Assembly: GCA_902777355.1 (NCBI GenBank)
Contig: CACYTU010000039.1
Location: 1-58,487, forward strand
Direction of reading: 5' to 3'
Length of the DNA: 58,487 nucleotides
From: an uncultured Lachnospiraceae bacterium
Lineage (GTDB): Bacteria > Bacillota > Clostridia > Lachnospirales > Lachnospiraceae
The notes below the pieces were generated by a model, which saw only the letters and a program-made list of their open reading frames with translations, was not told where the DNA came from and made no database searches. Of this stretch, positions 641-18,829 are shown piece after piece (the first letter of the stretch is position 1; each line of letters opens with the position of its first letter). Both the position numbers and the translations under genes were made by a program.

Positions 641-700
641 GCCGGGAACACTTCCGGATTGCAGTTTTACCATTCACAAGAGGGGAGCAGAGAAAACAAG

Positions 701-3253
701 ATGAGCATCACAAAGATCAGGAAGCGCGACGGCAGGGTCGTGGATTTTGACATCACAAAGATTGAAAACGCGATCGCAAAGGCATTTATCGCATCGGGCG
801 AAGTGGACGCGAGAGATGTCTCCGCAGTCTCCAGGGCAATCGGGCTTCTGCTGATGAGCGGACGCGAAGAAGTGGACAAGATGCCTGAGGTCGAAGAGAT
901 CCAGGACCGAGTCGAGAGTGCGCTGATGAAGGCCGGCTATCCCAAGACCGCCAAGAGCTATATCCTCTACCGCAGCCAGCACCAGAAGGTACGTGACACC
1001 AAGAAGACCCTGCTGGACTACAAGAAGCTGGTGGACGGCTATATTGGTGCCGAAAAAGACTGGCGCGTCAAGGAGAATTCCACTGTCACTCTCAGTGTCG
1101 GCGGCCTGATCCTCTCCAACTCCGGCGCGATCACTGCCAACTACTGGCTGACTGAGGTCTATGACGATGAGATCGCCGATGCCCACCGCAAATGTTTCAT
1201 CCACCTGCATGACCTGTCCATGCTGACCGGCTACTGTGCGGGCTGGAGTCTGAAGCAGCTCATTCAGGAAGGACTCGGCGGTGTTCCCGGCAGGATCACA
1301 TCCGCTCCCGCCAAGCACCTCTCCACCCTCTGCAACCAGATGGTCAATTTCCTGGGCATCATGCAGAACGAGTGGGCAGGCGCCCAGGCCTTCTCCTCCT
1401 TTGACACATATCTGGCACCCTTCGTCAAGATCGACAACCTGTCCTACAGCGAAGTAATGCAGTGTGTCCAGTCCTTTATCTACGGCGTCAACACCCCCTC
1501 CAGATGGGGCACACAGGCTCCCTTTACCAACGTGACTCTGGACTGGACAGTCCCGGCTGATATGAAGGATATGCCTGCCATCGTCGGCGGCAAGCCCCAG
1601 GATTTCACCTACGGCGACTGCAAGAAGGAAATGGACATGGTCAACAAGGCCTTCATCGAGATCATGATCCGGGGCGACGCCAACGGACGCGGTTTCCAGT
1701 ATCCGATCCCGACCTATTCCATCACCAGGGACTTTGACTGGAGCGAGACCGAGAACAACCGCCTCCTCTTTGAGATGACCGCCAAATACGGCACCCCTTA
1801 TTTTTCCAATTATGTAAACTCTGACATGGAGCCTTCCGATGTCCGCTCCATGTGCTGCCGTCTCCGCCTCGACCTGCGCGAGCTGCGAAAAAAAGGCGGC
1901 GGTTACTTCGGATCCGGTGAGAGCACCGGTTCCATCGGCGTAGTCACCCTCAACCTTCCCCGCATGGCTTATATAGCCCAGAACGCGGATGAGTTCTACG
2001 CCATGCTCGACCGCTACATGGATATCGCGGCCAGATCCCTGCGCGTGAAGCGCCAGGTCATCACCCGCCTGATGAATGAGGGCCTGTATCCCTACACACG
2101 CCGTTACCTGGGAACCTTTTCCAATCACTTCTCCACCATCGGCATCGTGGGCATGAACGAAGCCATCGAGAACGCTGCGTGGGTGCCCGGAGATATCACC
2201 GGCAAGCAGGGACACATCTTCGCTATGCAGGTTCTGCAGCATATGCGTGACCGCCTCTCCGACTATCAGGAGAAATACGGCGACCTCTATAACCTGGAGG
2301 CCACCCCTGCGGAGTCCACGACCTTCCGCTTTGCCAAGCACGATACGGAGGAGTTCCCCAAGATCATCACCGCAGAGAAGAACGGTGGCGCCCCCTACTA
2401 CACCAACAGCACGCATCTGCCGGTCGGCTTCACAGACGATATCTTCGACGCCCTGGAGATGGAGGACGACATGCAGACCATGTACACCTCCGGAACTGTT
2501 TTCCACGGCTTCCTGGGTCAGGAGCTTCCGGACTGGAAGGCCGCCAGCGCGCTGGTAAAGAAGATCGCCGAGAACTTCCGCCTGCCTTATTACACGCTCT
2601 CTCCGACTTATTCAGTCTGCATGGAGCACGGCTATATTTCAGGCAAGCATTTCGAGTGCCCCTATTGCGGAAAAGACGCCGAGGTCTATTCCAGGATCAC
2701 CGGCTACTATCGCCCGGTCCGCAACTGGAATGACGGTAAGGTTTCCGAGTTCAAAAACCGCCGCACATACGCTGAGAAGAAGATGTCCAAACTGTTACGC
2801 AACAATTTAAAACGTAATATGACAATTAATAGCGTAATATACGCTTCGGAGCACCAGGATGGAAACGACAATTCAAAACGTAATATGATGTCCTTTGAGG
2901 ATCATGAAGGTAACTACAGTTCCCAGCAGACTGGCGTTGCAGATTACAAGGGGGATCATGACATCGTCGATGCAGCAGTTGCAGATGTGGCAAACCGCAA
3001 AGCTGCAGAACCTTGGGCCGTCCTTGTCGTAACAAAGACATGCCCGAACTGCGCCGCGGCCAAAAAGATGCTCGATAAGGCAGGCTTTACTTATAAGGTC
3101 GTCTACGCGGACGATAAAAATGGTGCCGCAATCGCCAAGGAAAACGACATTGTCCAGGCACCGACACTTCTTGTCCCGGCAGAAGACGGGTATAAGAAGT
3201 TCACAAATGTAAGTGAAATATCAAAGTTCACCAAGGCGTCTGTCACCGCATGA
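701..3253 (+). CDS. nrdD: anaerobic ribonucleoside-triphosphate reductase, chimeric host-transposon protein
   Basis: Class III ribonucleotide reductase, which makes dNTPs from NTPs without oxygen using a glycyl radical. Seen: N-terminal ATP-cone (ITKIRKRDGRVVDFD), a CxxC-type zinc site (ECPYCG), and the radical site RITGYYRPVRNWN with Gly668. A glutaredoxin-like domain with CPNC at 781-784 ends the protein. Start: ATG 701 follows AGGGGAG; an upstream in-frame ATG at 659 lacks a comparable site. Residues 1-697 are host. Residues 698-850 are encoded by the left end of a Tn7-like element that cut the gene, so the linker (NNLKRN...DNSKRN) is translated transposase-binding DNA and the redox domain is the element's replacement copy. 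The native domain is stranded at 18420-18829; hand alignment gives about 58% identity over 74 residues. No nrdG activase gene is seen nearby. Function is probably retained but unproven. Confidence 0.93.
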   Translation: MSITKIRKRDGRVVDFDITKIENAIAKAFIASGEVDARDVSAVSRAIGLLLMSGREEVDKMPEVEEIQDRVESALMKAGYPKTAKSYILYRSQHQKVRDTKKTLLDYKKLVDGYIGAEKDWRVKENSTVTLSVGGLILSNSGAITANYWLTEVYDDEIADAHRKCFIHLHDLSMLTGYCAGWSLKQLIQEGLGGVPGRITSAPAKHLSTLCNQMVNFLGIMQNEWAGAQAFSSFDTYLAPFVKIDNLSYSEVMQCVQSFIYGVNTPSRWGTQAPFTNVTLDWTVPADMKDMPAIVGGKPQDFTYGDCKKEMDMVNKAFIEIMIRGDANGRGFQYPIPTYSITRDFDWSETENNRLLFEMTAKYGTPYFSNYVNSDMEPSDVRSMCCRLRLDLRELRKKGGGYFGSGESTGSIGVVTLNLPRMAYIAQNADEFYAMLDRYMDIAARSLRVKRQVITRLMNEGLYPYTRRYLGTFSNHFSTIGIVGMNEAIENAAWVPGDITGKQGHIFAMQVLQHMRDRLSDYQEKYGDLYNLEATPAESTTFRFAKHDTEEFPKIITAEKNGGAPYYTNSTHLPVGFTDDIFDALEMEDDMQTMYTSGTVFHGFLGQELPDWKAASALVKKIAENFRLPYYTLSPTYSVCMEHGYISGKHFECPYCGKDAEVYSRITGYYRPVRNWNDGKVSEFKNRRTYAEKKMSKLLRNNLKRNMTINSVIYASEHQDGNDNSKRNMMSFEDHEGNYSSQQTGVADYKGDHDIVDAAVADVANRKAAEPWAVLVVTKTCPNCAAAKKMLDKAGFTYKVVYADDKNGAAIAKENDIVQAPTLLVPAEDGYKKFTNVSEISKFTKASVTA
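2788..2792. other. target-site duplication CAAAC, left copy of outer element
   Basis: CAAAC directly precedes the TGTTACGC terminus at 2793 and is repeated directly after the ...GGGAAACA terminus at 18414. Five-bp duplications are characteristic of Tn7-family insertion. Confidence 0.9.
2793..2884 (+). repeat. outer element nrdD-proximal end: three TnsB-type sites
   Basis: Terminus TGTTACGC, then ACAATTTAAAACGTAAT (2802-2818), ACAATTAATAGCGTAAT (2822-2838) and ACAATTCAAAACGTAAT (2868-2884). The whole array is inside the open reading frame of nrdD, so the sites are also codons: two of them read NNLKRNM and DNSKRNM. Confidence 0.88.
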
Positions 3254-3260
3254 CCGCTTT

Positions 3261-3265
3261 GCTTT
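3261..3265. other. target-site duplication GCTTT, left copy of nested element
   Basis: GCTTT lies directly before the TGGTTTTTGCC terminus at 3266 and again directly after the ...GGCAAACACCA terminus at 7418 (7419-7423). An extra GCTTT precedes it at 3256-3260. Together with the mirrored end repeats this supports a 5-bp duplication. Confidence 0.75.
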
Positions 3266-3273
3266 TGGTTTTT

Positions 3274-3543
3274 GCCAACGTAAAAGGTAACGACTCCAAC
3301 ATAAAGGTAACGACTATCCAAAAATGCCAAATTATTTCCATTTTGGCGTGCTAACATAAAGGTAATGGTGATTTTATAGCAACCGAAATATTGCCATAAA
3401 ATCGCCATTTTTTTTGCCTACATATAGGTAACGAAAATACGCGTTTTTTCGCTGTCCTCGATTTTTGCCAACATAAAGGTCACCAAAACGCAAAAAATTT
3501 GCTAACATAAGGGTAACATATTTTTTGCTAACATAAGGTAAAT
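3274..3543 (+). repeat. left-end site array of nested element
   Basis: Seven 17-18-bp sites on the plus strand start at 3274, 3295, 3350, 3416, 3467, 3501 and 3527. The consensus is GCYAACATAAAGGTAAC. The last one ends 17 bp before the tniQ start codon, so transposase binding could also control tniQ transcription. Confidence 0.85.
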
Positions 3544-3560
3544 GACGGGGGACATGGAAG

Positions 3561-5441
3561 ATGCTTTTGGATTTGATGGATTTGCCTAAGATCATGGAGG
3601 ATGAGGACATAGTCGGATGGCTTGGAAGCATAGCTTCAGCCAACGGCTGGGACAGCAGGTCGTTTATGTCTGCCTTTTTCCCGGAGAACATATACACTTT
3701 TCGTGGTACTTTGTCAGTTGTAAGGGACTATATCGGCATCTACAAAAAATACGGAAGGTTCGGCTTTCCGGATCCGGGAACGATGCTGATGCTGCACTCG
3801 GCAGTTCCGGTATCCGGGCTTTTCATGGACGACTTTTACGTGGGTACGCTGGCGGACATGACACTGAACGGGACGGACATGTTGCCGTTCGAAAGTAAAA
3901 GGCTGTACAGGACATTCATGTACTGCCCGCTTTGCGCCAAAGAGGACCTGGGCAGGGAAGGCAGGGTGGCTGTCCACATACCTCATCAGGTGCCGGGTGT
4001 GATCGCATGCTATATACATGGCGTAAAGCTGTTTGAGGACCCTTATGCGGAGCCGGAAAAAGCTAGGGAACAGGATATACGCACGGCACAGGCTGTCCAT
4101 GCACTGTACCGTGGACAGGCGATAGGGGCTTTCGAAGACATCTCAGATCTCCTGCGCAGGAGGGCGAAAGAGCGCGGGATATCCCATGAAATCAGGCGAG
4201 ATACATTCCCGGTCCATGCTACAGCTGTTTCATTAGCAGCTTCCTTATTCACAGATGAGGAACTTTTACAGCTCTATAAAAAGGATGCCAACTGGTTCAA
4301 TGCCTGTAGGATTGCCGTGCAGAAGGATTCCCCGGGGGCGAAGGAGTTTTCCAGGCGGCACCCCCTGCTCACCTATACATGCGACAAATGCGGGACCAGG
4401 GTCACCCAGTACGCCCTGACGGCGCTTACGGGCGGGATGTGCCCGGTCTGCGCTTCTCATACACGGTGGCAGGAAAGGACTGCGAGGCGAGCAAGGCACT
4501 GTATAGACCCGGACTTCAGGATCGTCCGGTTCCACGGGAATAACAAGATCGATGTCCGGCATGTTCCATGCGGGCGGGTCATAGAAGACCATTCGATCAT
4601 GTATGTATTCCGTAACAGAAAAGTGACCTGCCCATTTTGTAAAAATGACAGTTACCAAGGCCATATAGGCGAGACCCGGACCATGAACTGCGGGCTTAAG
4701 GCCGTTATCACAAAGTTTGACTCAAAACAGGATATTGACCTAAAATTCGAAGACGGGAGCGAGGTCAAGGGAATAAAGTATTCAAGATTTTTGAAGGGCA
4801 GCGTCATCCCAAATAGGTTTTATCAGAACAGCCATATCAACGAGAAGAATGTTATGAACTGTGGCGTAGAAGGTGTGGTCATAAGATATGCTTCGTTTTC
4901 TGACATAGATGTACTTTTCCCAGATGGGTCTGTGGCGTGCGGGGTTACTTACAAAGCCTTTAAGCTGGGCCAGCTGATCCCAGAAAGTCTAAAGCCGGAT
5001 GACGGGCATATCAGCCCATGGAAAACACGACACAAGGAGCGCCAGGGGAAAACACGGCACAAGGAGCGCCAGGGGGAAACACGGCGCATGAATTGTGGAC
5101 TCATGGCAACCATCATCGATTACAAAGGAGCCGAAGACATGGTCGTGTGTTTTGAGACCGGAGAAAAGAGGGCGAATGTAAGGTATTCTAACTTCCTTAG
5201 AGGGGAGATAGCTCCGGAGGGGTTTTACAGTCCCAAGGTCAATGAGGAACGCGTCATGAAGAATGGACTCAAAGCAAAGGTCATTGCCGTCCACAGCTAT
5301 CTTGATGTTGACGTTCAGTTTGAAAATGGCGAGATTCGCAAAGGCATACCCCATGCATCTTTTCTAAAGGGGTACGTAAGGTCAGAAATTGGCATGGCAT
5401 GCCGGAGACATCATTTGGAATGGAAGGCGATGTGGATGTAA
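3561..5441 (+). CDS. TniQ/TnsD-family target selector of the nested element
   Basis: 626 residues. TniQ proteins choose the insertion site for Tn7-like transposases by binding target DNA. Seen: N-terminal TniQ-like segment (LPKIMEDEDIVGWLGSIA), and a CPLC...HIPHQVPGVIACYIHG zinc site at about 122-155 that matches TniQ. Two further CxxC ribbons follow (TCDKCG...CPVC about 275-300; HVPCG...CPFC about 335-365). The C-terminal third is an array of four related units of about 57 residues, starting near 370, 428, 505 and 562. Each runs MNCGLKAxI, a D[IV]DV-FEDG-like strand, and a YSxFLKG motif. Units 2 and 3 are separated by a short duplicated KTRHKERQG segment. Start ATG 3561 follows GGGGG at close range; it is the only in-frame ATG nearby. 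The array is probably the DNA-reading part (inference). Confidence 0.82.
   Translation: MLLDLMDLPKIMEDEDIVGWLGSIASANGWDSRSFMSAFFPENIYTFRGTLSVVRDYIGIYKKYGRFGFPDPGTMLMLHSAVPVSGLFMDDFYVGTLADMTLNGTDMLPFESKRLYRTFMYCPLCAKEDLGREGRVAVHIPHQVPGVIACYIHGVKLFEDPYAEPEKAREQDIRTAQAVHALYRGQAIGAFEDISDLLRRRAKERGISHEIRRDTFPVHATAVSLAASLFTDEELLQLYKKDANWFNACRIAVQKDSPGAKEFSRRHPLLTYTCDKCGTRVTQYALTALTGGMCPVCASHTRWQERTARRARHCIDPDFRIVRFHGNNKIDVRHVPCGRVIEDHSIMYVFRNRKVTCPFCKNDSYQGHIGETRTMNCGLKAVITKFDSKQDIDLKFEDGSEVKGIKYSRFLKGSVIPNRFYQNSHINEKNVMNCGVEGVVIRYASFSDIDVLFPDGSVACGVTYKAFKLGQLIPESLKPDDGHISPWKTRHKERQGKTRHKERQGETRRMNCGLMATIIDYKGAEDMVVCFETGEKRANVRYSNFLRGEIAPEGFYSPKVNEERVMKNGLKAKVIAVHSYLDVDVQFENGEIRKGIPHASFLKGYVRSEIGMACRRHHLEWKAMWM
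5021..5087 (+). repeat. 27-bp tandem duplication inside tniQ of nested element
   Basis: Two near-identical 27-bp units (5021-5047, 5048-5074) plus a partial third encode KTRHKERQG twice and then GETRR. The duplication is in frame and lengthens the linker between the second and third repeat units of the protein. Confidence 0.85.
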
Positions 5442-5444
5442 ACA

Positions 5445-5615
5445 ATGAATTTACTTATGATTTCTGATATCCATTTGAAAACACGGATATTTCATGGGGC
5501 ATCAGAACCGATGAAAGAAATAAATGTGGACCTGGCAGTCTGCCCGATGGATATAGCTGATGATTCAGTGGCTGATGTAGCCTCAATCGGGCCTGATTGT
5601 TGCATAATAATTTAA
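5445..5615 (+). CDS. small open frame, 56 residues, unknown
   Basis: ATG at 5445 begins three bases after the tniQ stop and reads MNLLMISDIHLKTR... to a TAA at 5613-5615, twelve bases before the next gene. It fills the gap between two genes on the same strand, but has no clear ribosome binding site of its own, so coupling to tniQ would be needed. No family was recognised. It may instead be the decayed end of a longer tniQ-like tail. Confidence 0.3.
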   Translation: MNLLMISDIHLKTRIFHGASEPMKEINVDLAVCPMDIADDSVADVASIGPDCCIII

Positions 5616-5627
5616 GGAAGTAAGATA

Positions 5628-6347
5628 ATGACCGATTATCATTATTACATAACGTCGTTGGAGGCTGTTCTCAGCAGGCATATACCGGCAAATAGGTACT
5701 CTTTTTACACTAGGAAAGACAGCGCTGTGTGTCTGATGGAAGAGAAATGGGAATCTTCTTTCTTTTCCAAGATGACTATGTGGAGAATATCAGTCCCTGA
5801 TGATCAGGACTATCTATTTGATGAGGTAAAAGACGCGTGTCTTAAAATGCTCGATATTCTGGCGGGGAATACCAGGGATGCCATTGTGCAGGAGTTTTGG
5901 AAAGAAATAGAGGAGAGTAGGTATGTCAACTCGGCTAAAGGTAATAGCGACCGTGCACTCACAGAAAATATCAATGATCTTATAGTCGATTGTAAGATGG
6001 CAAGTTTACTGCTCCGCATAGGCGCGAAATGTGAAGCCCAGGATGCAAAAACTCTTCTGGAAACTCTTCATGTCCTTGAAGGGCTCCTGCTTCCAGGTGA
6101 AGAAAACGATCCTACAGTAAACAAACGAAAGGGGTGCAATACATCTTCAACCGAAATGGAAGTTCCGATCTTTCAGAAGGTCGCGCTGACGATTCCCGAA
6201 GCTGCCAAGTATAGCAACATTGGAATCAATAAGATCGACGAACTGCTCCGAAAGCCAAACTGTCCTTTCGTGTTGTTCGTCGGGACAAAAAGGCTGGTCA
6301 AACGGAAGGAATTTGAAGAATTTATCCATACCCATATTGTAATATAA
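5628..6347 (+). CDS. excisionase-like helix-turn-helix protein
   Basis: 239 residues. The last 65 residues (FQKVALTIPEAAKY...IGINKIDELL...KRLVKRKEFEEFI) resemble the Tn916-type excisionase fold: a winged-helix protein in which an EAAKY helix and a KRKxFEEF wing contact DNA. The first 170 residues are not recognised and look helical and soluble. ATG 5628 follows GGAAGTAAG at good spacing. It lies between tniQ and a strong terminator (6474-6513), so it is probably co-transcribed with tniQ. Excisionases belong to tyrosine-recombinase systems and none is present here, so a regulatory or DNA-architecture role in this element is more likely (inference). Confidence 0.6.
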   Translation: MTDYHYYITSLEAVLSRHIPANRYSFYTRKDSAVCLMEEKWESSFFSKMTMWRISVPDDQDYLFDEVKDACLKMLDILAGNTRDAIVQEFWKEIEESRYVNSAKGNSDRALTENINDLIVDCKMASLLLRIGAKCEAQDAKTLLETLHVLEGLLLPGEENDPTVNKRKGCNTSSTEMEVPIFQKVALTIPEAAKYSNIGINKIDELLRKPNCPFVLFVGTKRLVKRKEFEEFIHTHIVI

Positions 6348-6362
6348 AGAGTCGCTGTTCAA

Positions 6363-6782
6363 CAGTTAAACAGCTGGGTTAGGCATAGACTGGCAGTATG
6401 GAGGATTGATATTCTCGACTGGTGTTTATGTTCATGCCGTGAAGAGGCTGACACTTTACGATCGAAATATACAGGACCGAGGCCTGTTCAAACAGGCTTT
6501 CCGGTCTTTTTTTGTGAGAGACGCGGCATACTCTCGTTGCTTGTGCTATCTTAAACGGAAATATCCTATAATATAAGTATAGAAGATTTATTATAATTCT
6601 ATAACCTATGCGTTTCTCACATAATATAGATGTAAAGTATTTTTAATGCTCGTGAACAAGGTGGTGGTTCTTTTTTTGTGAGAGACACGGCATACTCTCG
6701 TTGCCTGTGCTGTCTTAAACGGAAATATCCTATAATATAAATATAGGGGAAGACTCAGTAAAAATAGTGAGAGAATAGACCA
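6363..6782 (+). repeat. intergenic region with terminator and 78-bp direct repeat
   Basis: The gap contains no gene. A 78-bp sequence at 6505-6582 is repeated with few changes at 6669-6746 (offset 164 bp). Each copy starts with a run of T and ends in CCTATAATATAA, a good -10 element. The second copy lies about 35 bp upstream of the next gene and probably supplies its promoter. The first copy overlaps the terminator T-tract of the preceding gene. Confidence 0.8.
6474..6513 (+). terminator. Rho-independent terminator after excisionase-like gene
   Basis: Interrupted stem GGACCG/CGGTC with an inner GCCTG/CAGGC, followed by seven T residues at 6507-6513. Confidence 0.75.
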
Positions 6783-7166
6783 ATGGAACTAAAATATATT
6801 GAACTGAAAACCGGATGGAATGATAACGGCCCGGCATGGATTGGGTTTGTAAAAGAATCCCGTTCGGGAAGGATGGTATATTTTAATGACCATGCCTTCC
6901 GGAGACACAGCGGGGAATACAGTAACTATATCGATGTGGAAACCCAGGAAGAGTACTGGATCTCCGGAATGAAGAAAAACGGAGAGGACAGGCACTGGGC
7001 GGGAGGAGGCGCTATCACGATCGACAGCAGGGCGGTTGAAGTGTATAAGTCATTGACAGGGCTGAAAGAACTCCCATCAAGCAAATACCGGATCCAGGAA
7101 ATACCGGATCGTTTTCCTGTTGACCGTATTCATGCGCTCATGAATCGCAGAAAAAGTGACTCATAA
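6783..7166 (+). CDS. small cargo protein of unknown function
   Basis: 127 residues, MELKYIELKTGWNDNGPAWIGF..., with conserved-looking motifs GWNDNGPAWIG, RMVYFNDHAFRR, EEYWISGMKKNGEDRHWAGGG. From memory this pattern recurs in small uncharacterised bacterial proteins of accessory regions, sometimes misnamed deoxyxylulose-phosphate synthase; it has nothing of that enzyme. No signal peptide or membrane segment is seen. It is the only cargo gene in the nested element, lies just inside the right-end repeats and has its own promoter-like -10 upstream. The function is unknown. Confidence 0.65.
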   Translation: MELKYIELKTGWNDNGPAWIGFVKESRSGRMVYFNDHAFRRHSGEYSNYIDVETQEEYWISGMKKNGEDRHWAGGGAITIDSRAVEVYKSLTGLKELPSSKYRIQEIPDRFPVDRIHALMNRRKSDS

Positions 7167-7180
7167 TTATTGGCAAGCAT

Positions 7181-7410
7181 GTTTACTATATGTTGGCAAA
7201 AAATAATGTGTTACCTTTATGAAGGAAAAGTTCTTCTTAATAGCGTTACTGTTATGTTGGAAGAAAAAAGTTGGCAAAAGCGGAAAGGGTATTTACGATA
7301 TGATGGAAATAATACCACCCCGTAAAAATTCCAATAGTTACCTTTTTAGAAGGCAAAAACAGCTTAAAAAATACCTCTAAAAGGGGCAGTATGTTACCTT
7401 TAACGTTGGC
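7181..7410 (-). repeat. right-end site array of nested element
   Basis: Six sites on the minus strand, at 7181-7197, 7210-7226, 7245-7261, 7291-7307, 7337-7354 and 7393-7410, match GCCAACATAAAGGTAAC to varying degrees. The outermost is the best and mirrors the outermost left site. Confidence 0.8.
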
Positions 7411-7424
7411 AAACACCAGCTTTG

Positions 7425-7453
7425 TGGATTTTGCCGATGTCCAAGGTAACGAC
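7425..7453 (+). repeat. orphan third element end
   Basis: Just after the right GCTTT duplication there is a 29-bp sequence that matches the extreme left end of the nested element at 24 of 29 positions and has the same orientation (TGGATTTTGCC...AAGGTAACGAC). It is outside the nested element as bounded here, so it looks like the remnant of another related element at the same place. Confidence 0.6.
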
Positions 7454-7535
7454 CCTTGAATGAAAGGGAGAATCCGGAGTCCTGAGAGAACTCCGAGTAA
7501 CTCCGCCAAACGCTACTATATGAAATAACACAAAA

Positions 7536-7562
7536 GGCATCTCCACGAGGAGGTGCCTTTTT
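7536..7562. terminator. Rho-independent terminator
   Basis: GGCATCTCC-ACGA-GGAGGTGCC stem (7536-7557) followed by TTTTT and preceded by AAAA. It separates transcription entering from nrdD and the nested element from the tns operon. Confidence 0.85.
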
Positions 7563-7735
7563 GTTGTGGGAAAACGTAACATTGCGATTAAAAACTATGA
7601 AAAATACAATTTAAAACGTAATAAAGTAATATGGAACTAAAAAAATACATTATAAAATATAATATATTGAGCGTTAAGACAAAATAAAATATAATATAGA
7701 TGCTCATAACGAATAGTAGATAACAATCGAAGGAG

Positions 7736-10201: not shown

Positions 10202-10874
10202 AGCAGGCAAGCGCAGGGAAGGGCGTGGAAAGGGGCATGGTGCAAACTACAAGCCCTGGATAAAGATAAGGGAATTCAACAGCGCCGGGACCACGGCCAA
10301 TGTCGTAGACTGGAAACACGGAAGAACGACACAGCTCCTGTCACAGGGCGAAGAATGGTATTATTATGTTCTGAGGTGGGATGACAATGTAACCGATATA
10401 CGGGAGCAGTTCCCGCTGTTTGAACCCGAAGATACAGTCAGGATCGCTGATGCTTTTGGTTTTAGACATCCCAAGGATAGAAATACAACCATGACAACGG
10501 ATATGCTCGTCGATTATGCCGACGGGCACCAGGAAGCTTTCTCGATCAAGGATAGCCGCAAGGACGTGGATTATAAGCTCGCGAAAACTGAGTACGAGAT
10601 GAATCAGGCCATGCGGACAGCTGAGAAACTCCTTATCGAGAAGAAGTACTGGGCAGAGAAGGGGATCACCTGGAAACTCCTTTATAAGGAAGACCTTGAC
10701 CCGCAATATGTGAACAATATCCGTCGAATCGTAGTTTATTATGACGAGAACAAAGTCCACGATGACATTTCAAGGGTCAAACACCTGATCGCGACAAAAC
10801 AAATAACAGTGGACCTGTTTAAGCCGATCGATTATAGGGAACTTGTCACAGAACACTTAAGGTTGGGAGGCTAA
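10185..10874 (+). CDS. tnsA: TnsA-like transposon endonuclease
   Basis: About 229 residues. TnsA cuts the 5' strand at transposon ends and pairs with TnsB, allowing cut-and-paste rather than copy-in transposition. The restriction-enzyme-like catalytic residues are in place: Glu in GEEWYYYVLRW, Asp in MTTDMLVDYAD, and the QEAFSIKDSRK Lys. This gives the E-D-xxK pattern of the family. Start ATG 10185 lies 5 bp after AGGAGG (10174-10179); the GTG at 10179 overlaps that site and is less likely. It overlaps the end of tniQ by 17 bp and abuts tnsB with no gap, so it is translationally coupled in the operon. TnsA with TnsB predicts cut-and-paste movement without cointegrates. Confidence 0.9.
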   Translation: MPRITEAGKRREGRGKGHGANYKPWIKIREFNSAGTTANVVDWKHGRTTQLLSQGEEWYYYVLRWDDNVTDIREQFPLFEPEDTVRIADAFGFRHPKDRNTTMTTDMLVDYADGHQEAFSIKDSRKDVDYKLAKTEYEMNQAMRTAEKLLIEKKYWAEKGITWKLLYKEDLDPQYVNNIRRIVVYYDENKVHDDISRVKHLIATKQITVDLFKPIDYRELVTEHLRLGG

Positions 10875-13052
10875 ATGAACGAAGTAGTTATACAGGTCGG
10901 GGATATCCTGCAGATTGATAAAAGCATATACAGGATTCTTTATATTTCATCACCGTCCATCGTACTGTGTCAGATGAATACTCCCAAAATAAACATTGGG
11001 GAACACGATCTTCAAGCAATCAGAACTGGTGTTTTAAATGAAGATATAAGAGTGATTAAAGATGTTGAAACGGCGGTGGTTGATACAGCGACGCTGTCTG
11101 AAGCAGAAAAAAGGGCATTTGAATTAAGGAAAAACATAATAAAGGATATAAATGCGACATATGCTCCATCATATTTGAGCCTAAATGGAAAACTCCATAG
11201 ACAGGAAATAGACGATATCCTGATCAAATACAACTTAACAAGACCGAGATTTTGGCGTATTTGCCGAACTTATCTCCAATCAGGGATGAAAGAGTCATCG
11301 CTCCTTCGCAAGAAACGTCCCAAGACCGGAGACAGTGAAGCGGGTAAAAAACGCGGATCAAAAGGAGATCTCGGGATCGCGGCCGGGTGCCCCCTTACTC
11401 CCGAAGTCATAGAAGCGTTCAAGTATGGCCTTAGCTTTTACAAATCAGGCAGAGCGAAGAGCTTCAAGGCAGCGTACGACACCATGAACAACAGATATTT
11501 TTTTCATGATGTTGTAGTAGGAGGGAAAGTACAGAGCAGGCTGCTGCCGATCGATGAAAGGCCGACATTCAGGCAGTTCTACTATTATTGCCATAAAAAC
11601 CTGCCCAGGGAAGAGTATGACGCGATCAAGACATCAAAGATGGAACAGCGCAACAACAAGAGGCTCCTTTTGTCAGAGGATGCCGCAAACGTGGAGGCGC
11701 CAGGTGAAAAAGTAGAAGCAGATTCCCTTGAAGTAGACCTTTCCCTGATCTCACTGTTCAATAGCGTAACGAACCAGACCATCGGAAGACCCATTGTTTA
11801 CTGCATGAGGGATGTGCTGACACATGCGGTCGTCGCGGTCTCTGTGAGTTTGGAGAATAACAGTTTTCTCGGATATACAAACCTGTTCCTGAACCTTGGA
11901 GAGGACAAAAAAGAGTTTTGTGCAAAATATGACATCGATCTTAATGACGAACGGCTCTTCCCTTCCAATTTCCTGCCTTTGGATTTCTATTCTGACCGGG
12001 GCTCTGATTACAAATCCGATCCGGCCGAAAAGCTGTGTAATGCCCTCGGGATCAACAGACACATTGTCACCGGGGGTTCAGGAAGCATGAAAGGCATGAT
12101 AGAACAGTGGTTCCATCAGATCCACACGATGGTCAATCCTTACACAGAGGGTGCCGGGCAGATCCAGAAAAGGCACGACTCCCAGCATCACAAGCAGGCT
12201 GTTCTTACGGTGCATGATTTCACAAAGATGCTGTTGATCTGTATCCTGTCCTACAACCAAAAACATATGGACAACTATAAGCCTCGTGCCTGTGAGATAA
12301 AGGACGGGATAGATTCTACCCCTTCTGTGCTGTGGGAGTACTACTGCAAAACAAAAGGCGCTCCCCGTCCGATCACAGACAGAACAGATTATTTATATAA
12401 ACTGCTCATACCAAAACAGGGGAAGATCGACAAGAAGGGCATCCATTTCAAAGGACTCACGTATATAAACTATGATGATGAGGACCTCCTTGGCCGTATG
12501 TACAGGGCCCAGAATAAAAAGTATGCTCTAAGCGTCAGATATGACCCAAGGGATAACAGCAGGATTTATTACACGGATTCTGTTGGAAACATGGTCTACG
12601 CGGAAATGAATGAAGGGGTCGGCTGGCAAGGGGATATTAAAGGACTGACATTCAAAGAAACAAGTGATTACTTCAAAATGATAGCAGTCAAAAACAAAGA
12701 AGCGCGTCAAAGGAATGAGGAGATCGACGCTATGCGGGCGGACCTTGTGGAAAATATTGTTGAATCTGCCAAGGCTAACAGCCCTACATATGCAGAGACT
12801 GCAAACATGAAAAAGGTGAGAGAGCAGGAAAAACAGCTGATCAACAGAATGGACTCTATCACCGACAGGATCGCTAAGGAAGAAGGGAAAGCTATCGGAG
12901 AAAGTTCCGACAGCACAAAGATAATTGATATCGGTTTGCCGGGACCGTCTGAAGCCACGGAACCCAGGCAGGAACTGACAGAAAAAGAATATCTCAATAT
13001 GGTCGGTAATTTCTACGACTATGAAGGAGAATACGAAGAGGAGGACAGCTGA
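10875..13052 (+). CDS. tnsB: TnsB-like DDE transposase
   Basis: 725 residues. TnsB binds the end repeats and performs 3' cleavage and strand transfer through an RNase-H-fold DDE site. Likely catalytic residues: Asp283 in VEADSLEVD, Asp374 in FYSDRGSDY, and Glu410 in KGMIEQWFHQ. The 35-residue gap between the last two fits the retroviral-integrase family. The N-terminal 150 residues contain helix-turn-helix-like segments (RQEIDDILIKYNLTRPRFWRICRTYL) for end binding. The C-terminal tail is charged and probably contacts TnsC. The start ATG directly follows the tnsA stop, with GGGAGG about 6 bp before it. Its sites are expected to be the ACAATTnnAAACGTAAT repeats at 2.8 and 18.3 kb and the copy before the operon. 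Confidence 0.93.
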   Translation: MNEVVIQVGDILQIDKSIYRILYISSPSIVLCQMNTPKINIGEHDLQAIRTGVLNEDIRVIKDVETAVVDTATLSEAEKRAFELRKNIIKDINATYAPSYLSLNGKLHRQEIDDILIKYNLTRPRFWRICRTYLQSGMKESSLLRKKRPKTGDSEAGKKRGSKGDLGIAAGCPLTPEVIEAFKYGLSFYKSGRAKSFKAAYDTMNNRYFFHDVVVGGKVQSRLLPIDERPTFRQFYYYCHKNLPREEYDAIKTSKMEQRNNKRLLLSEDAANVEAPGEKVEADSLEVDLSLISLFNSVTNQTIGRPIVYCMRDVLTHAVVAVSVSLENNSFLGYTNLFLNLGEDKKEFCAKYDIDLNDERLFPSNFLPLDFYSDRGSDYKSDPAEKLCNALGINRHIVTGGSGSMKGMIEQWFHQIHTMVNPYTEGAGQIQKRHDSQHHKQAVLTVHDFTKMLLICILSYNQKHMDNYKPRACEIKDGIDSTPSVLWEYYCKTKGAPRPITDRTDYLYKLLIPKQGKIDKKGIHFKGLTYINYDDEDLLGRMYRAQNKKYALSVRYDPRDNSRIYYTDSVGNMVYAEMNEGVGWQGDIKGLTFKETSDYFKMIAVKNKEARQRNEEIDAMRADLVENIVESAKANSPTYAETANMKKVREQEKQLINRMDSITDRIAKEEGKAIGESSDSTKIIDIGLPGPSEATEPRQELTEKEYLNMVGNFYDYEGEYEEEDS

Positions 13053-13133
13053 CCACACGTCAAAAAAACTAAATAACGTACTGCTTTATGGAAATATTAA
13101 CAAATACGGACAACGGGGCAAGGGAGGAAGACA

Positions 13134-14768
13134 ATGTCTTCATTTATAGAATATGAGTACGAAAAACTGGAAAATGGCAGCAGACAGTATGATGCAGTTG
13201 ATTATTTATCAATGAGAGGAGTAAAGGCAAGGTACGTTAGTTACAGCACGGATACGGGAAACCCGTATATAGAAGCGCTTCCAAAGCCAAGAACACAGAG
13301 CGAACTTGATATTGCCTGCCGGAGAGGTATTCCCGGATACAGGTACGAAGAAGAAAAAAAGAAGGAGCCACACGAAAAGATATTATCTATATTGAAACTG
13401 AGGGACGTACGGTTCCCTCTGCCGTTAAATTATGAACTTGAAGATGAGGTATTTGATGCGCTGGTCCTGTCTTATCGGGCACGAAATATGTTCCGCGACG
13501 CGCGCGGCGACATAAGGCTGGAGTATGAAGCCAGGAACCAAGAGCAACATACGGACGGCCGCCTTGTCGGGAATGACGCAGCTGCGACGAATGCCGGCAT
13601 AACACTGATCGGTTATTCCGGGTGTGGGAAGTCATCAGCGCTTGAAACATTGTTCCGCAACTATCCGCAGTACATCATACACAAAGGGAAAGGGATGACC
13701 ACCTACCCGCAGATCGTATATCTTGTCGTCCAGTGTCCACCTCATTCAAATTTCAGGGGCTTGTACAAGAACATTGGTGTCGCTATAGACCGGGCTCTTG
13801 GTAACGTAAAACCAGTATATGAGAATGAACTGGACGCTGGAAACCGGGGAAATCTTTCTGCTTATAATGACAAAGTACGATATCTTATAGAAAAATTTGC
13901 CATTGGGATCATTATCTTTGACGAGATCCAGCACATACACTTTGATGCCACGTTGGAAAATTCTTTTGAGAGTATCCTTGAACTGTCGAATCAGACCAAG
14001 GTTGCCTTCGGTGTTGTCGGTACTGAGGACTCATATGGAAAGATCTTTTCGGGGAACCTCCGGCAGTCAAGGCGACTGGGAGCGGAGATACACGCAGATG
14101 TATACTGCCAGAACAGAGTGCTGTTTGATTATAATGTAAAGCAATTGTTTAAATACCAGTGGTTTAACAAACTTGTCGAACCGGATGAAGAGATCATCAA
14201 TAAGCTGTATGATTGTACAAAAGGGATCATTGACCAGCTTGTAGGGCTTTACATGTACATGAACATAGATTATGTACGAGCGCAGAGGAAGCCAAAGGTC
14301 AATGCGGATTATGTCCAGCGCACGATGGAACGGCATTACCCGGGGATGATGGATCTTTTGTCGGACCTGAAAGACCCGAAAGTCGAAGCTGAAAGGGCAA
14401 AGCTCGCGAAACAAGCCAATGATGATATGCAGCAGATCGCACAGGAAGAAAAGAGAAAAGCCGCCGAGAAGGCGGCGCTGAACGCCAATAAGGCACCAGA
14501 CGCTGAGCGGATCGTAGAACTGAAGCAGTTCGTTGTGAGCAGGATCATGGAGATTGACGACAGGTTCAATGCTTCTACGATAGAAAATATGGTCGATAAG
14601 GTACTTGGTTCCAAGGAGGGAAAAGAAAAGTCCAATGATGATATAGCCATCATGAGGATGACATTCAAAAAACTTCAAAACGCAGGGAAAACAGATAAGA
14701 GAAAGGCACCTAAGAAGAAAAAGGCCTCGCCTGCAGAAATATTATCATTCCTGGAAGATAATGAATGA
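13134..14768 (+). CDS. tnsC: TnsC-like AAA+ transposition regulator
   Basis: 544 residues. TnsC is the ATPase that connects the target-bound TniQ/TnsD to the TnsAB transposase and gives target immunity. Walker A GYSGCGKSSALE is at about 160-171, Walker B GIIIFDEIQHIHFD at about 257-270, and a GVVGTEDSY sensor-like segment follows. The C-terminal third is charged and predicted coiled (EEKRKAAEKAALNANK). Start ATG 13134 follows GGGAGGAAG; 81 bp separate it from tnsB. It is the last gene of the tniQ-tnsA-tnsB-tnsC operon. At 544 residues it is about the same size as Tn7 TnsC. Confidence 0.9.
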   Translation: MSSFIEYEYEKLENGSRQYDAVDYLSMRGVKARYVSYSTDTGNPYIEALPKPRTQSELDIACRRGIPGYRYEEEKKKEPHEKILSILKLRDVRFPLPLNYELEDEVFDALVLSYRARNMFRDARGDIRLEYEARNQEQHTDGRLVGNDAAATNAGITLIGYSGCGKSSALETLFRNYPQYIIHKGKGMTTYPQIVYLVVQCPPHSNFRGLYKNIGVAIDRALGNVKPVYENELDAGNRGNLSAYNDKVRYLIEKFAIGIIIFDEIQHIHFDATLENSFESILELSNQTKVAFGVVGTEDSYGKIFSGNLRQSRRLGAEIHADVYCQNRVLFDYNVKQLFKYQWFNKLVEPDEEIINKLYDCTKGIIDQLVGLYMYMNIDYVRAQRKPKVNADYVQRTMERHYPGMMDLLSDLKDPKVEAERAKLAKQANDDMQQIAQEEKRKAAEKAALNANKAPDAERIVELKQFVVSRIMEIDDRFNASTIENMVDKVLGSKEGKEKSNDDIAIMRMTFKKLQNAGKTDKRKAPKKKKASPAEILSFLEDNE

Positions 14769-15069
14769 CGGATATGCATATTAACATATTGAAAAGAAAG
14801 AATATGTTGGAGATATTTCTTTACAGTGGACAAATGTTCGAATAAAGTGTAATATATTGTTGAAACGTGTTGACGATACGGGCGGATGAGCAGGAGATAG
14901 GCCGGTCAAAATGCTGCATTATGCCGGTCTGGCCCTGCTTTCTGGAAACCCGTATTAACAAGACCATAGAAGCTTGACGAAATGGTCCTGCAGTTTGCTC
15001 CCGGATGCAAGAAGGGGAAAGGCAGCAAGGCTGGCAAAGGGCAAAGAATAACAATAACGAGGATAAGCT
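14769..15069 (+). promoter_or_regulatory. intergenic region between tnsC and the restriction-modification gene
   Basis: 301 bp without a gene. A long imperfect stem (AGCAGG...GGCCGG paired with CCGG..GGCC..CCTGCT, about 14887-14941) with a weak T-tract may end the tns operon. The remainder should hold the promoter of the next gene; no clear -35/-10 pair stands out. Confidence 0.35.
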
Positions 15070-17859
15070 ATGACAGATGCTCAGCAGAGAGAAGCTGCAA
15101 GGCAGTTTTTCTATCGGTGGCAGAACAAAGGAAATGAGAAGCAGGACGCCAGTTCATATTGGGTCGAAATTCTTCATGACATTCTTGATGTCGGAGATGT
15201 GACTCAGCGTGTGGAGTTTGAAAAGCCCGTGATTGGGCCGGACGGGAATACAAAATACATCGATGTATATATCCCGGAGACGCGTGTCCTGATTGAGCAG
15301 AAGTCTTTAGGAATTCCGCTCGACAAGCCTCAGGCGGGACACGCCGGGATGACCCCATATGAACAGGCCAAGATGTACGATAACGGCCTGCCGTTTGACG
15401 AAAAGGCCAGATGGATTATTACATCGAACTTCGGCGAAATTTGGATCTACGATATGAACCAGAAAAAGCCGGAAAGTAATATTGTGAAGCTCGCTCTGCA
15501 GGAACTTTCCGCGAAGTATCATATGCTGGACTTTGTCGTGAACCGGGAAACCAAGAAAATCACGCAGGAGATGGAAGTTTCCCTGAAAGCCGGTGAAATC
15601 GTCGGGGAACTGTACGATGCCTTCCACAAGCAATTTAAAAATCCTGATGATCCAGAGACGCTCAAGAGCCTGAACAAGCTGTGCGTCCGCCTGGTATTCT
15701 GCCTGTATGGCGAGGACGCCGACGTTTTCGGTAAGAAGAGCCTTTTCCATGACTACATGGCTCAGTTCAAGCCGTCCCAAGCACGAAAGGCTCTGCGGGA
15801 TCTCTTCCGAATCCTTAATCAAAAACCAGAAGAACGTGACAAGTATCTTGCGGACGATGATCCTATACTTGCATCTTTTCCGTATGTAAATGGAGGGCTG
15901 TTTGATGGAGATGACGCGGAAATTCCGCCCTTCACAGACGAAATCATGGATCTGCTACTAAACAAAGCGTCCAATGATTTTGACTGGTCCGGCATCAACG
16001 GAACGATTTTTGGCGCTGTGTTTGAGTCTACGCTGAATCCTGAGATCCGACGTTCCGGCGGCATGCATTACACCGCCATCGAGAACATCCATAAGGTGAT
16101 AGACCCACTTTTCCTTGACGACCTGAAAGAAGAATTTGAATCCATCAAGGCTATTGAAATCTGGAAGACCCAGAAGACGAAGCTAGAGGCCTTCCAAAAT
16201 AAGCTGGCGTCATTAACATTCATGGATCCAGCGGCCGGATCCGGTAATTTTCTAACAGAGACCTACACAAGCCTGCGTAAGATTGAGAATGAAGTGATAA
16301 AGCTCTTATCCCGCGGACAGATGACTCTGGGCGAGGTCATGAATCCCATCAAAGTCAGCATTGGTCAGTTCGCGGGCATTGAAATTAATGACTTTGCGGT
16401 CACAGTTGCACGTACTGCCCTCTGGATCGCCGAAAACCAGATGATGAAGGAGACCGAGGACATTGTCCAGATGGATCTCGACTTTTTGCCCTTAAAAACC
16501 AATGCCAATATCGTAGAGGGGAACGCACTGGAGATCAACTGGAACGATGTGGTACCCAACACTAAACTGACTTATCTACTTGGCAATCCTCCCTTTGTCG
16601 GCGCGCGGCTGATGAGTAGGAACCAGAAGGCGGATGTGAACCGACTTTTTGCGGGATTTAAGAATGCCGGGGATCTGGATTACGTGGCATGCTGGTACAA
16701 GAAGGCCTCCGACTATATTGCTGGCACAGGGATACGATGCGCTCTGGTCTCTACCAATAGCATCACCCAAGGTGTGGCCGTCCCAACCCTCTGGAAGCCC
16801 CTCTTCGAGGAAGGCATCCATATTGATTTTGCTTACCGAACCTTCCGTTGGGACAGCGAGGCCACAATCAAGGCCCATGTCCACTGCGTGATCGTAGGTT
16901 TTTCCAAGGCAGAGAAAAACGGGGATAAGATACTTTTTTCGGAGGAGGGAACAAAGGAACATGTAAAAAATATCAATGGATACTTGCTTGACGCGGAAGA
17001 TGTATTTGTCAGCAGTAGGAGCACGCCATTGTGTGATGTTCCAAAGATTGGTATCGGGAACCAGCCGATTGATGACGGAAATTATCTTTTTACAAAAGAA
17101 GATATGGAAGCTTTTATCAAAAAAGAGCCTTCGTCTAAAAAATGGTTCAAACCATGGTATGGCTCTCAGGAATTCATCAACCGAAAGCCACGCTACTGCT
17201 TGTGGCTCGGCGATTGCCCCCCAAACGAGCTTAAAAAAATGCCACAGTGCATGAAGCGAGTGGAAGCTGTCCGTGCTTTTCGCGTTGCCAGCAGGAGATC
17301 ATCCACGAAGAAGCTGGCCCAGTATCCGACCAGGTTTCAGACAGAAAACATGCCGAAGGGGACGTACATCGTAATCCCGGAGGTTTCTTCGGAACGCAGG
17401 CGTTATGTCCCGATGGGCTTCATGACTCCGGATATTTTGTGTAGCAATTTGGTAAAAGTCATGCCTCACGCGACGATCTACCACTTTGGCATCCTACAAT
17501 CTAATGTCCATATGTCCTGGATGCGTGCTGTCGCCGGGCGTCTGGAAATGAGATACAGGTACTCTAAGGATATTGTCTATAACAACTTTCCTTGGCCTAA
17601 TCCCACACCTGAACAAAAAGAGAGGATAGAGAAGACGGCGCAAGGTATCTTAGATGCCCGTGCCATTTACCCCGACAGCAGTCTTGCAGACCTCTATGAC
17701 CCGCTAACTATGCCTCCAGAGTTGCGTAAAGCTCACCAGAAAAACGACGCCGCCGTCATGCAAGCTTACGGCATGCCGATCAAGGAAACGGATGAGGCCG
17801 CCTGCGTAGCCTGGTTAATGCGACTGTACCAGGAAAAAGTACAAGCAACCAGCAAATAA
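15070..17859 (+). CDS. MmeI-like (type IIL) restriction-modification enzyme
   Basis: 929 residues in one chain. These enzymes cut unmodified DNA and methylate adenine on one strand of their site, with a single shared recognition domain. Seen: N-terminal nuclease site Asp65...Glu76-Gln-Lys78 (YIDVYIPETRVLIEQKSLG), matching the D-ExK spacing of MmeI. A helical spacer follows, then methyltransferase motif I FMDPAAGSGNFL (about 383-394) and motif IV GNPPF (about 505-509). A C-terminal region (EFINRKPRYCLWLGD...RYSKDIVYNNFPWP) resembles the target-recognition part. Start ATG follows GAGGAT. It is defence cargo of the transposon, at the far end of the element, on the same strand as tns genes. It could instead be called a BREX-type methylase, but the N-terminal nuclease argues against that. 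Confidence 0.85.
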   Translation: MTDAQQREAARQFFYRWQNKGNEKQDASSYWVEILHDILDVGDVTQRVEFEKPVIGPDGNTKYIDVYIPETRVLIEQKSLGIPLDKPQAGHAGMTPYEQAKMYDNGLPFDEKARWIITSNFGEIWIYDMNQKKPESNIVKLALQELSAKYHMLDFVVNRETKKITQEMEVSLKAGEIVGELYDAFHKQFKNPDDPETLKSLNKLCVRLVFCLYGEDADVFGKKSLFHDYMAQFKPSQARKALRDLFRILNQKPEERDKYLADDDPILASFPYVNGGLFDGDDAEIPPFTDEIMDLLLNKASNDFDWSGINGTIFGAVFESTLNPEIRRSGGMHYTAIENIHKVIDPLFLDDLKEEFESIKAIEIWKTQKTKLEAFQNKLASLTFMDPAAGSGNFLTETYTSLRKIENEVIKLLSRGQMTLGEVMNPIKVSIGQFAGIEINDFAVTVARTALWIAENQMMKETEDIVQMDLDFLPLKTNANIVEGNALEINWNDVVPNTKLTYLLGNPPFVGARLMSRNQKADVNRLFAGFKNAGDLDYVACWYKKASDYIAGTGIRCALVSTNSITQGVAVPTLWKPLFEEGIHIDFAYRTFRWDSEATIKAHVHCVIVGFSKAEKNGDKILFSEEGTKEHVKNINGYLLDAEDVFVSSRSTPLCDVPKIGIGNQPIDDGNYLFTKEDMEAFIKKEPSSKKWFKPWYGSQEFINRKPRYCLWLGDCPPNELKKMPQCMKRVEAVRAFRVASRRSSTKKLAQYPTRFQTENMPKGTYIVIPEVSSERRRYVPMGFMTPDILCSNLVKVMPHATIYHFGILQSNVHMSWMRAVAGRLEMRYRYSKDIVYNNFPWPNPTPEQKERIEKTAQGILDARAIYPDSSLADLYDPLTMPPELRKAHQKNDAAVMQAYGMPIKETDEAACVAWLMRLYQEKVQATSK

Positions 17860-17870
17860 GGAGAAGAAAT

Positions 17871-18027
17871 ATGCCCAGGGAAAAGAAGGACGCCCGGTAC
17901 CTGAACATAAAACTTTCTTCTTATATATACGGGCCTTAATAAGACGGCAGCGACTGAGAAGATAATGGAAAAATTTTTCAATGAGTATTTCGATAAGCCG
18001 GAAGAAGAACGCAACCCGTTCGGGTAA
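17871..18027 (+). pseudogene. decayed ribbon-helix-helix regulator
   Basis: A good ribosome site (AAGGAGAAG) precedes ATG 17871, which reads MPREKKDARYLNIKLSSYIYGP and stops at 17937-17939. From 17944, in a different frame, the sequence continues TAATEKIMEKFFNEYF...EERNPFG to TAA 18025-18027. Together these look like the start and end of one short ribbon-helix-helix-type protein with a deletion and frameshift in the middle. The full-length form would be about 60-70 residues. It lies 11 bp after the restriction-modification gene, where it may once have been a small regulator or antitoxin. Confidence 0.6.
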
Positions 18028-18151
18028 GTTTGACTCAGAAGAATATAAAACTATCTGTTCGGATCTCTGCATGTACAGAGAATTTACAAATATGGAGATG
18101 CATGCCGTGTTCCATATACGGACGAAGCTGTGTCGGGAAGACACAAAATGG

Positions 18152-18177
18152 GCGCCGAGAATATCGGCGCTCTTTTT
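18152..18177 (+). terminator. Rho-independent terminator of the cargo operon
   Basis: GCGCCGA-GAATA-TCGGCGC perfect 7-bp stem (18152-18170) followed by TCTTTTT. It lies about 100 bp inside the element's right end and would shield the end from cargo transcription. Confidence 0.85.
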
Positions 18178-18279
18178 GTGCTTTATGAAGGCATCCCCTT
18201 TGTTATGCGAAGGAAGATGTGGTATAGTATAGAAGCATGTTGGCCTTCATATGGTAGTATACACGCTGTTCCACAACAT

Positions 18280-18414
18280 GTTTCATTTATAATTGTAGAA
18301 AAACGATAACAAATCCCGGGGATACAAAATGCATATTTCGTTTATAATTGTAGAAATATCGAAAATCTTCGGGGAAATAGGCAATCTTGTTTCATTTATA
18401 ATTGTAGGGAAACA
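18280..18414 (-). repeat. outer element far end: three TnsB-type sites
   Basis: Three minus-strand sites ACAATTATAAAYGAAAY lie at 18280-18296, 18335-18351 and 18389-18405, evenly spaced about 54 bp apart. The terminus is GGGAAACA (18414). Site spacing at the other end is tighter and irregular (20 and 46 bp), so the two ends are asymmetric as in Tn7. Confidence 0.88.
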
Positions 18415-18419
18415 CAAAC
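18415..18419. other. target-site duplication CAAAC, right copy of outer element
   Basis: This is the right-hand copy of the 5-bp duplication. It lies in frame with the displaced nrdD codons (AAA CCT GTC). Confidence 0.9.
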
Positions 18420-18829
18420 CTGTCCGCGGAATCTCTTCAAAGGGTTCTGTCGCAGGCAATGCCTGGCAGACACAGCAGAGCCAGATGGCCCAGGCTGTCT
18501 CAGCAGGCGTAAATCCCGCACAGACAACTCCTGCAGCTCCTGCAGCTCCTGCTGCCGGGACAAAGAAGGTGACTGCTGACCGCAAGGCCATCCTGGTTGC
18601 TACAAAGACCTGCCCCAACTGCGGCGCGGCCAAAAAGATGCTGGAAAAAGCCCACATCCCTTACCAGGTGATCTATGCCGACAACCCCGAGGGCATGTCG
18701 TTTGCGGAGGCCAACAACATTATCCAGGCCCCGACCCTGCTGATGCCCAACGGCGAAACATATGACAAATATACCAACATTGCCGAGATTTCCGCTTTCA
18801 TGAAGAACCGCAGACCTGTCCTGGCATAA
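18420..18829 (+). pseudogene. nrdD: displaced native 3' end of nrdD (glutaredoxin-like domain)
   Basis: Reads PVRGISSKGSVAGNAW... through an Ala/Pro-rich linker to a redox domain with TKTCPNCGAAKKML and IIQAPTLL, ending at TAA 18827-18829. It joins base 2792 in perfect frame when 2793-18419 are removed, giving 833 residues. It is now cut off from its gene. An ATG at 18329 inside the transposon end is in frame and would make a 166-residue protein, with only a weak GGGGA before it, so it could still be a small free glutaredoxin or an unexpressed remnant. The domain is intact with no stop or frameshift, suggesting the insertion is recent. Confidence 0.88.

Follow-up and report, generated by a model that had tools for sequence, protein, structure and literature searches.

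The window analysed here, a stretch of 58,487 nt from an uncultured Lachnospiraceae bacterium (contig CACYTU010000039.1), contains an nrdD gene that is split by a Tn7-like transposon. The split gene reads as one complete NrdD by means of a tail borne on the element. The explanation that fits best, to which we attach a probability of about 0.86, is that a site-specific Tn7-like element homes on the nrdD core and restores the gene with its own tail.

A split nrdD gene and its element-borne tail

The nrdD core lies at 701–2792 on the + strand and encodes an ATP-cone and glycyl-radical NrdD (Pfam NRDD 5.6e-186, ATP-cone 6.1e-23; NCBIfam PRK08270 and TIGR02487 above cut-off). It is broken after Met-Ser-Lys codons, between the glycyl-radical core and the C-terminal redoxin domain, by an element of 15,622 bp (2793–18414, + strand) that starts with TGT and ends with ACA. 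The target-site duplication CAAAC flanks it at 2788–2792 and 18415–18419 (both + strand). An earlier interpretation made from the letters alone (the sequence-only reading) had proposed a CAAAC-flanked element splitting nrdD over 2793–18829; the split, the duplications and the starting position are confirmed, while the element itself ends at 18414 and the remainder of that range is the native tail of the host.

The first 461 bp of the element (2793–3253) carry a replacement linker in frame with the core (2793–2998, + strand), followed by a replacement redoxin domain with CPNC and QAPTLL motifs and a stop codon (2999–3253, + strand; Pfam Glutaredoxin 22.6 bits, cut-off 22.9). An open reading frame (ORF) of 864 amino acids with a TTG start (659–3253) runs from the core into this end of the element; counted from the ATG at 701, the product has 850 residues. 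Beyond the other end, the displaced native linker and redoxin tail (18420–18829, + strand; Pfam Glutaredoxin 21.3 bits, under the 22.9 cut-off) keep their frame intact, and joining the flanks at the duplication restores an open NrdD frame of 847 residues (start taken at 659) with the linker form of the nearest relatives. The in-frame linker and redox domain, the 850-residue product and the undamaged native tail had all been noticed in the sequence-only reading, and each was borne out.

The coding role of the left end extends into its transposase-binding array. Each element end has three predicted TnsB-type sites, the left set (2802–2822, 2822–2842 and 2868–2888, + strand) being inverted relative to the right set (18277–18296, 18332–18351 and 18386–18405, − strand). 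The repeat consensus has stops in two of its three frames and is open in one. At the left end, the NrdD frame coincides with the open one in repeats 1 and 3. In repeat 2 it coincides with a frame that has two stops in the consensus, and this repeat deviates from the consensus at both. The two other frames across the junction hit a stop at the 6th and 8th codon inside the element. The linker stayed open in the NrdD frame in 88 of 5000 dinucleotide shuffles, a modest result when taken alone. At 100 residues from WNDGK to CPNC, its length falls among those of 27 relatives (56–124). We also considered a right end that purposely gives the native tail a start codon. An ATG at 18329 is in frame, and the second copy of the element described below has a comparable one, but the 90-nt stretch was also open in 599 of 5000 shuffles and the idea was rejected.

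The spare and native redoxin domains of the window are 56.2% identical (45/80); a hand count had given about 58%, and the conclusion that the two tails differ stands with the corrected figure. CPNC and QAPTL are retained in the alignment of the spare domain. The spare domain is most similar to tails of the group that, in a redoxin-domain tree, holds the window and its second carrier, reaching 67.5% identity to one member (G044). Its G+C content at third codon positions (54.8%) lies within the range of tnsABCD (47.5–56.7%), compared with 73.3% for the native domain and 76.8% for the core, which a long stay in the element would predict. A structural model built from 22 aligned tails has a mean pLDDT (predicted local distance difference test) of 87.6 and the order strand-helix-strand-helix-strand-strand-helix. 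In a fold comparison it matched thioredoxin-like chains best (lowest E 1.5e-4; 13 matches at ≤0.001). By sequence, the domain matched the NrdH-redoxin 1r7h (0.0028), and the top match was a pilin chain (0.00014), which is unexplained.

A second insertion and uninterrupted relatives

Another copy of the element, with a length of 12,450 bp, occupies the same nrdD codon in a different species of the same genus, the metagenome-assembled genome (MAG) RUG12648. It is flanked on both sides by the 5-bp sequence CAAGC, the form of that genome's own codons; a duplication thus accompanies this related insertion too. Given their own duplications, CAAAC and CAAGC, the two look like separate events rather than a single insertion passed down from a shared ancestor. 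The host genes differ between the two genomes, at 1730/1979 identical positions over the last 2000 nt of the core, 252/300 over the last 300 nt adjoining the element and 264/395 over the native tails. The spare tails are identical at 459/461 positions and the right ends at 482/486. The excess identity of the spare tail over the adjoining and the longer core stretch is significant (Fisher p = 1.8e-18 and 2.7e-21, respectively), and its two differences are one silent change and one His-to-Arg replacement. This pattern indicates that the spare tail travels with the element. The earlier view that the tail did not arise by local duplication also holds, both from its 56.2% identity to the native domain and from its near-identity in two hosts. 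The left terminus of the RUG12648 copy reads TA instead of TG, a CTG-to-CTA change that is silent in the NrdD frame, and from this terminus the copy may be immobilised.

Relatives without the element show the gene in one piece. We searched 61 genomes of the genus with the C-terminus of the chimera; 35 matched and 26 gave no match. The 35 comprise the two carriers, five genomes for which this search gave no locus (G001, G048, G057, G061 and G065; G057 has N bases near the insertion site) and 28 with loci. One of the 28, G071, was left out because its contig ends just before the site, which sets the empty-site count at 27. In all 27 readable relatives nrdD passes the site without a break and goes on to a redoxin tail, lacking the element's linker, and the only match through that linker besides the window's own was in RUG12648, itself a carrier; the linker and tail proposed as foreign were therefore not found in any element-free relative. 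Eight of the 27 group with the window and RUG12648 in the redoxin-domain tree, and seven of these start their linker with [SG]KP[IV][RH]G, as does the right-hand tail of the window; the eighth, G002, has a different linker. Separately, contig 235 of G071 (L018) ends inside nrdD just before the insertion point. A polymorphic insertion might explain this; no TnsB match was found in G071.

Target choice, mechanism and alternatives

A related element suggests what the transposon may recognise. In Coprococcus catus VPIC661, an element whose TnsD and TnsB are 32% and 37% identical to those of the window adjoins an nrdD without a redoxin tail. It lies 15 nt beyond the end of that gene's stop codon, and no piece of nrdD is found in it. 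Between the end of the shared motif TGGAATGnnGGnAAG and the element lie 52 nt in the window and 51 nt in C. catus. In the window, the corresponding sequence TGGAATGACGGTAAG (2726–2740, + strand) codes for WNDGK, is common to the C. catus nrdD, and is a candidate TnsD target region. Measured from the codon for the Gly of RITGYY (2702–2704, + strand), which we take to be the glycyl-radical residue, the distances are 88 and 84 nt. The NrdD of the window goes on into a linker and redoxin domain, so that a similar distance there ends in the linker.

A third, more distant element (G1075:C1, L104–L106; TnsD 29% and TnsB 31% identical to the window's) is Tn7-like, roughly 30 kb long, and splits a gene that we take to be comM. 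The frame of that gene stops a few codons past the break, and no comM tail was seen there. Whether other family members all carry a redox tail at this end was a question of the sequence-only reading: the RUG12648 copy has one, and none was seen in the C. catus and G1075 elements. On the sequences compared, a replacement end occurs where the host would be expected to need the interrupted product, and is absent from these two related elements.

These observations fit the following model. TnsD would recognise the conserved 3′ part of the nrdD core, probably the WNxGK region, and direct insertion about 52 bp past the WNxGK codons. Where NrdD has no redoxin extension, as in C. catus, this point would lie past the stop codon; where it has one, as in the genus of the window, it would lie inside the linker and the redox domain would be severed. 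An nrdD tail would have been taken up at the end of the element nearest the target, in register with the insertion point. The interrupted gene would then run on across the transposase-binding repeats, receive a substitute linker and redoxin domain, and keep its full length. The chimera is presumably made and active, and selection for a working NrdD would have kept the tail in the element. We consider it likely that this Tn7-family end is dual-coded, as a transposase-binding array and as linker codons followed by a redox domain, and that insertion into an essential gene is thereby tolerated, NrdDs with a C-terminal extension become available for homing, and every insertion exchanges the redox domain of the host. 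The earlier statement that the element repairs the gene stands, as judged from sequence, for reading frame, domain and descent.

Several points weigh against this explanation. The branch of the spare domain is long (0.81), which relaxed constraint would also fit and which leaves the source of the domain unsure. The window genome has a single NRDD match, this gene, and is only 84% complete, so that its need for the gene is presumed; RUG12648 has a further NRDD gene. The two copies of the C. catus duplication do not match exactly (AATAT/AAAAT), and the distance argument comes from three insertions only. Just two copies with the spare tail are known, both in MAGs of one genus. Their spare tails are so nearly equal that they allow no selection test within the element, and the repeats of the RUG12648 copy, sharing the left-end sequence, give no independent test of the open frame.

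The leading alternative is that the tail is a passenger: a captured nrdD fragment that is in frame by history or chance. The chimera would then lack activity or be dispensable, and insertion would be tolerated because the cell is served by another reductase or a free redoxin. The second NRDD gene of RUG12648, the incompleteness of the window genome, the long branch and the shuffle result, improbable yet not extreme, would all agree with it. We nonetheless judge it unlikely. The element brings exactly the part of nrdD that is cut off, at the end where it is needed and in frame, and its linker length is in the native range; repeat 2 departs from its consensus exactly at the would-be stops; and CPNC and QAPTL are retained. 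No other reductase was found in the window genome, where a search for PF02867, the large subunit of other reductases, returned nothing at 84% completeness.

That both carriers are MAGs, the window genome with 5.1% contamination besides its incompleteness, raises the thought of an assembly artefact or a strain mixture. This is very improbable: the same arrangement stands on single contigs of two genomes with different flanks and with duplications that differ and are each self-consistent, joining the flanks restores the native form seen in relatives, and a named strain, C. catus VPIC661, has a related element at the equivalent position. Still less credible is that the left tail, contiguous as it is with the core, is the host's own and the right-hand tail foreign, or that the two are a local duplication, given that element-free relatives show the right-hand linker form, which rejoins the core at the duplication, that none of the 61 genomes searched showed the left linker without the element, that between the two hosts the left tails match at 459/461 positions and the right-hand tails at 264/395, and that the spare and native domains share only 56.2% identity.

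Gene content, distribution and comparison with known systems

By the features tested, the element is a Tn7-like transposon. A tnsD-type target selector of 821 amino acids (7736–10201; Pfam TniQ 2.5e-15), with a TniQ domain and repeated Cys pairs, is followed by tnsA (10179–10874; Tn7_TnsA-like_N 1.7e-16), tnsB (10875–13052; Mu-transpos_C 2.6e-5, with a tblastn match to annotated Tn7 transposition genes) and tnsC (13134–14768; AAA_22 1.4e-12, TniB 2.6e-8), all on the + strand. All four are above the Pfam cut-off, and the same set is present in RUG12648 and C. catus. TnsB residues D283, D288, D374 and E410, candidates for the DDE triad, are invariant across three sequences, two of which are 99% alike. 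Among the eight main ORFs of the element, Pfam gave no integrase match and no Cas effector; no separate search for CRISPR arrays was made.

Upstream of tnsD on the + strand lie a tniQ-type gene (3561–5441, 626 amino acids; Pfam TniQ 2.3e-8) and a Tn916-Xis-like gene (5628–6347), both missing from the RUG12648 copy, and an ORF of 127 amino acids without a family match (6783–7166), which that copy retains. PADLOC, run on four of the eight main ORFs, matched tniQ to TniQ models only. The cargo is an MmeI-like type IIG restriction-modification gene (15070–17859, + strand). RUG12648 has one at 3341–6100 of L039 that falls under the same PADLOC model; the two genes align by blastn in parts only, at 76–81%, whereas most of the shared element aligns at 96–99%.

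Iteron-like repeats of the form TTTGCYAACATAAAGGTAAC bracket the tniQ gene, the Xis-like gene and the 127-residue ORF. Seven stand on the + strand in 3271–3543, and inverted copies occur at 7181 and 7210 (region 7181–7412), with one more visible by eye at about 7393. RUG12648 retains some of them and lacks the segment 3448–6439. They may mark a nested unit or be regulatory sites. Upstream of tnsD (7606–7625), in RUG12648 as well, 18 nt of the terminal TnsB-type repeat recur without mismatch, possibly for self-regulation of the tns operon; a former element end at 7606 was considered and rejected, its sole support being this single 18-nt match. TnsD residues ~610–795 (9563–10120) resemble stand-alone proteins of 214–238 amino acids from other genomes of the family and class, with no Pfam match. 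Outside the element, five copies of a 35-bp tandem repeat (442–620) stand directly 5′ of nrdD.

Relatives of the element were scarce. A scan of genome contigs returned only RUG12648 and C. catus VPIC661. With the window genome counted, TnsD matched in 4 of 41 relatives (E ≤ 0.001), 11 of 397 family genomes (1e-8), and, at 1e-20, 3 of 392 genomes of the order and 4 of 391 of the class; in the order and class searches G1075 was the only other genome with a match along most of the protein. TnsB matched in 9 of 62 genus genomes at 0.001, reaching at least 99% identity in the window genome and RUG12648 only, and in 6 of 397 family genomes at 1e-50. The viral contigs searched contained no relatives of TnsB or TnsD. 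Among plasmids, 2008 records matched TnsB, each at <60% identity, and 12 matched TnsD, none covering 80% of the query. The window genome has a further Tn7-like element (G000:C103, L089) with a TnsB 26% identical, and in G077 four places gave equal-scoring TnsB matches.

If the proposed explanation is correct, nrdD is indicated as a homing site for Tn7-like elements, transposase-binding sites can double as codons, and precise loss of the element would restore the native isoform. A fixed insertion distance combined with a C-terminally extended target protein would select for a replacement end, a rule we suggest here, and surveys limited to intergenic insertions would overlook such elements. Our open-access searches found no paper mentioning both Tn7-like elements and nrdD and no gene-restoring transposon of the Tn7 family, in agreement with the earlier impression that the strategy was not known for this family; that agreement extends to open-access sources and not to the whole literature. 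In the available portions of a survey of target selectors (PMC10293859), neither 'ribonucleo' nor 'anaerobic' occurs.

Tn7 and Tn7-like elements that home through TnsD, at glmS or tRNA sites, insert at a defined distance from a conserved stretch of a gene, according to excerpts of two papers (PMC11406308, PMC8649781), and the second describes Tn7-type elements as integrating downstream and leaving the target intact. The window element resembles those described there in its tnsABC and TniQ/TnsD genes, its repeated end sites and its 5-bp duplication. It differs in entering the coding sequence and supplying the missing 3′ part from its own end. The C. catus element shares the adjacency to nrdD and the motif distance, but it stands beyond the stop codon and brings no part of nrdD. 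Landing outside the target coding sequence is usual for Tn7-like elements and not defining; the insertions in the window genome and RUG12648 are inside nrdD, that in C. catus outside it. Tn6022-type Tn7-like elements, and the non-Tn7 element Tsy, insert inside the comM coding sequence, and the passages of PMC10293859 consulted describe no replacement for the split gene, whereas the window element brings one. The closest parallel in outcome comes from prophages and islands at icd and dusA, where, as described in portions of PMC10111431 and PMC4482086, a replacement borne on attP rebuilds the interrupted gene; for dusA islands it is proposed at the 5′ end (PMC4482086). As in those elements, the interrupted gene is rebuilt to full length from element sequence. 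They use site-specific recombinases and identity between attP and attB; the window element has a transposase system with a 5-bp duplication, its coding sequence is the transposase-binding end itself, and its spare domain agrees with the native one at only 56.2% of positions, unlike the identity of attP and attB. The replacement outcome is therefore known from integrase elements, and its use in the Tn7 family appears, within the open-access literature, to be new. Tn7-family elements have been described as landing beside essential genes and so sparing them; the window element lands inside one and brings the missing piece, which would be the same solution as that of the integrase elements, reached through unrelated recombination chemistry.

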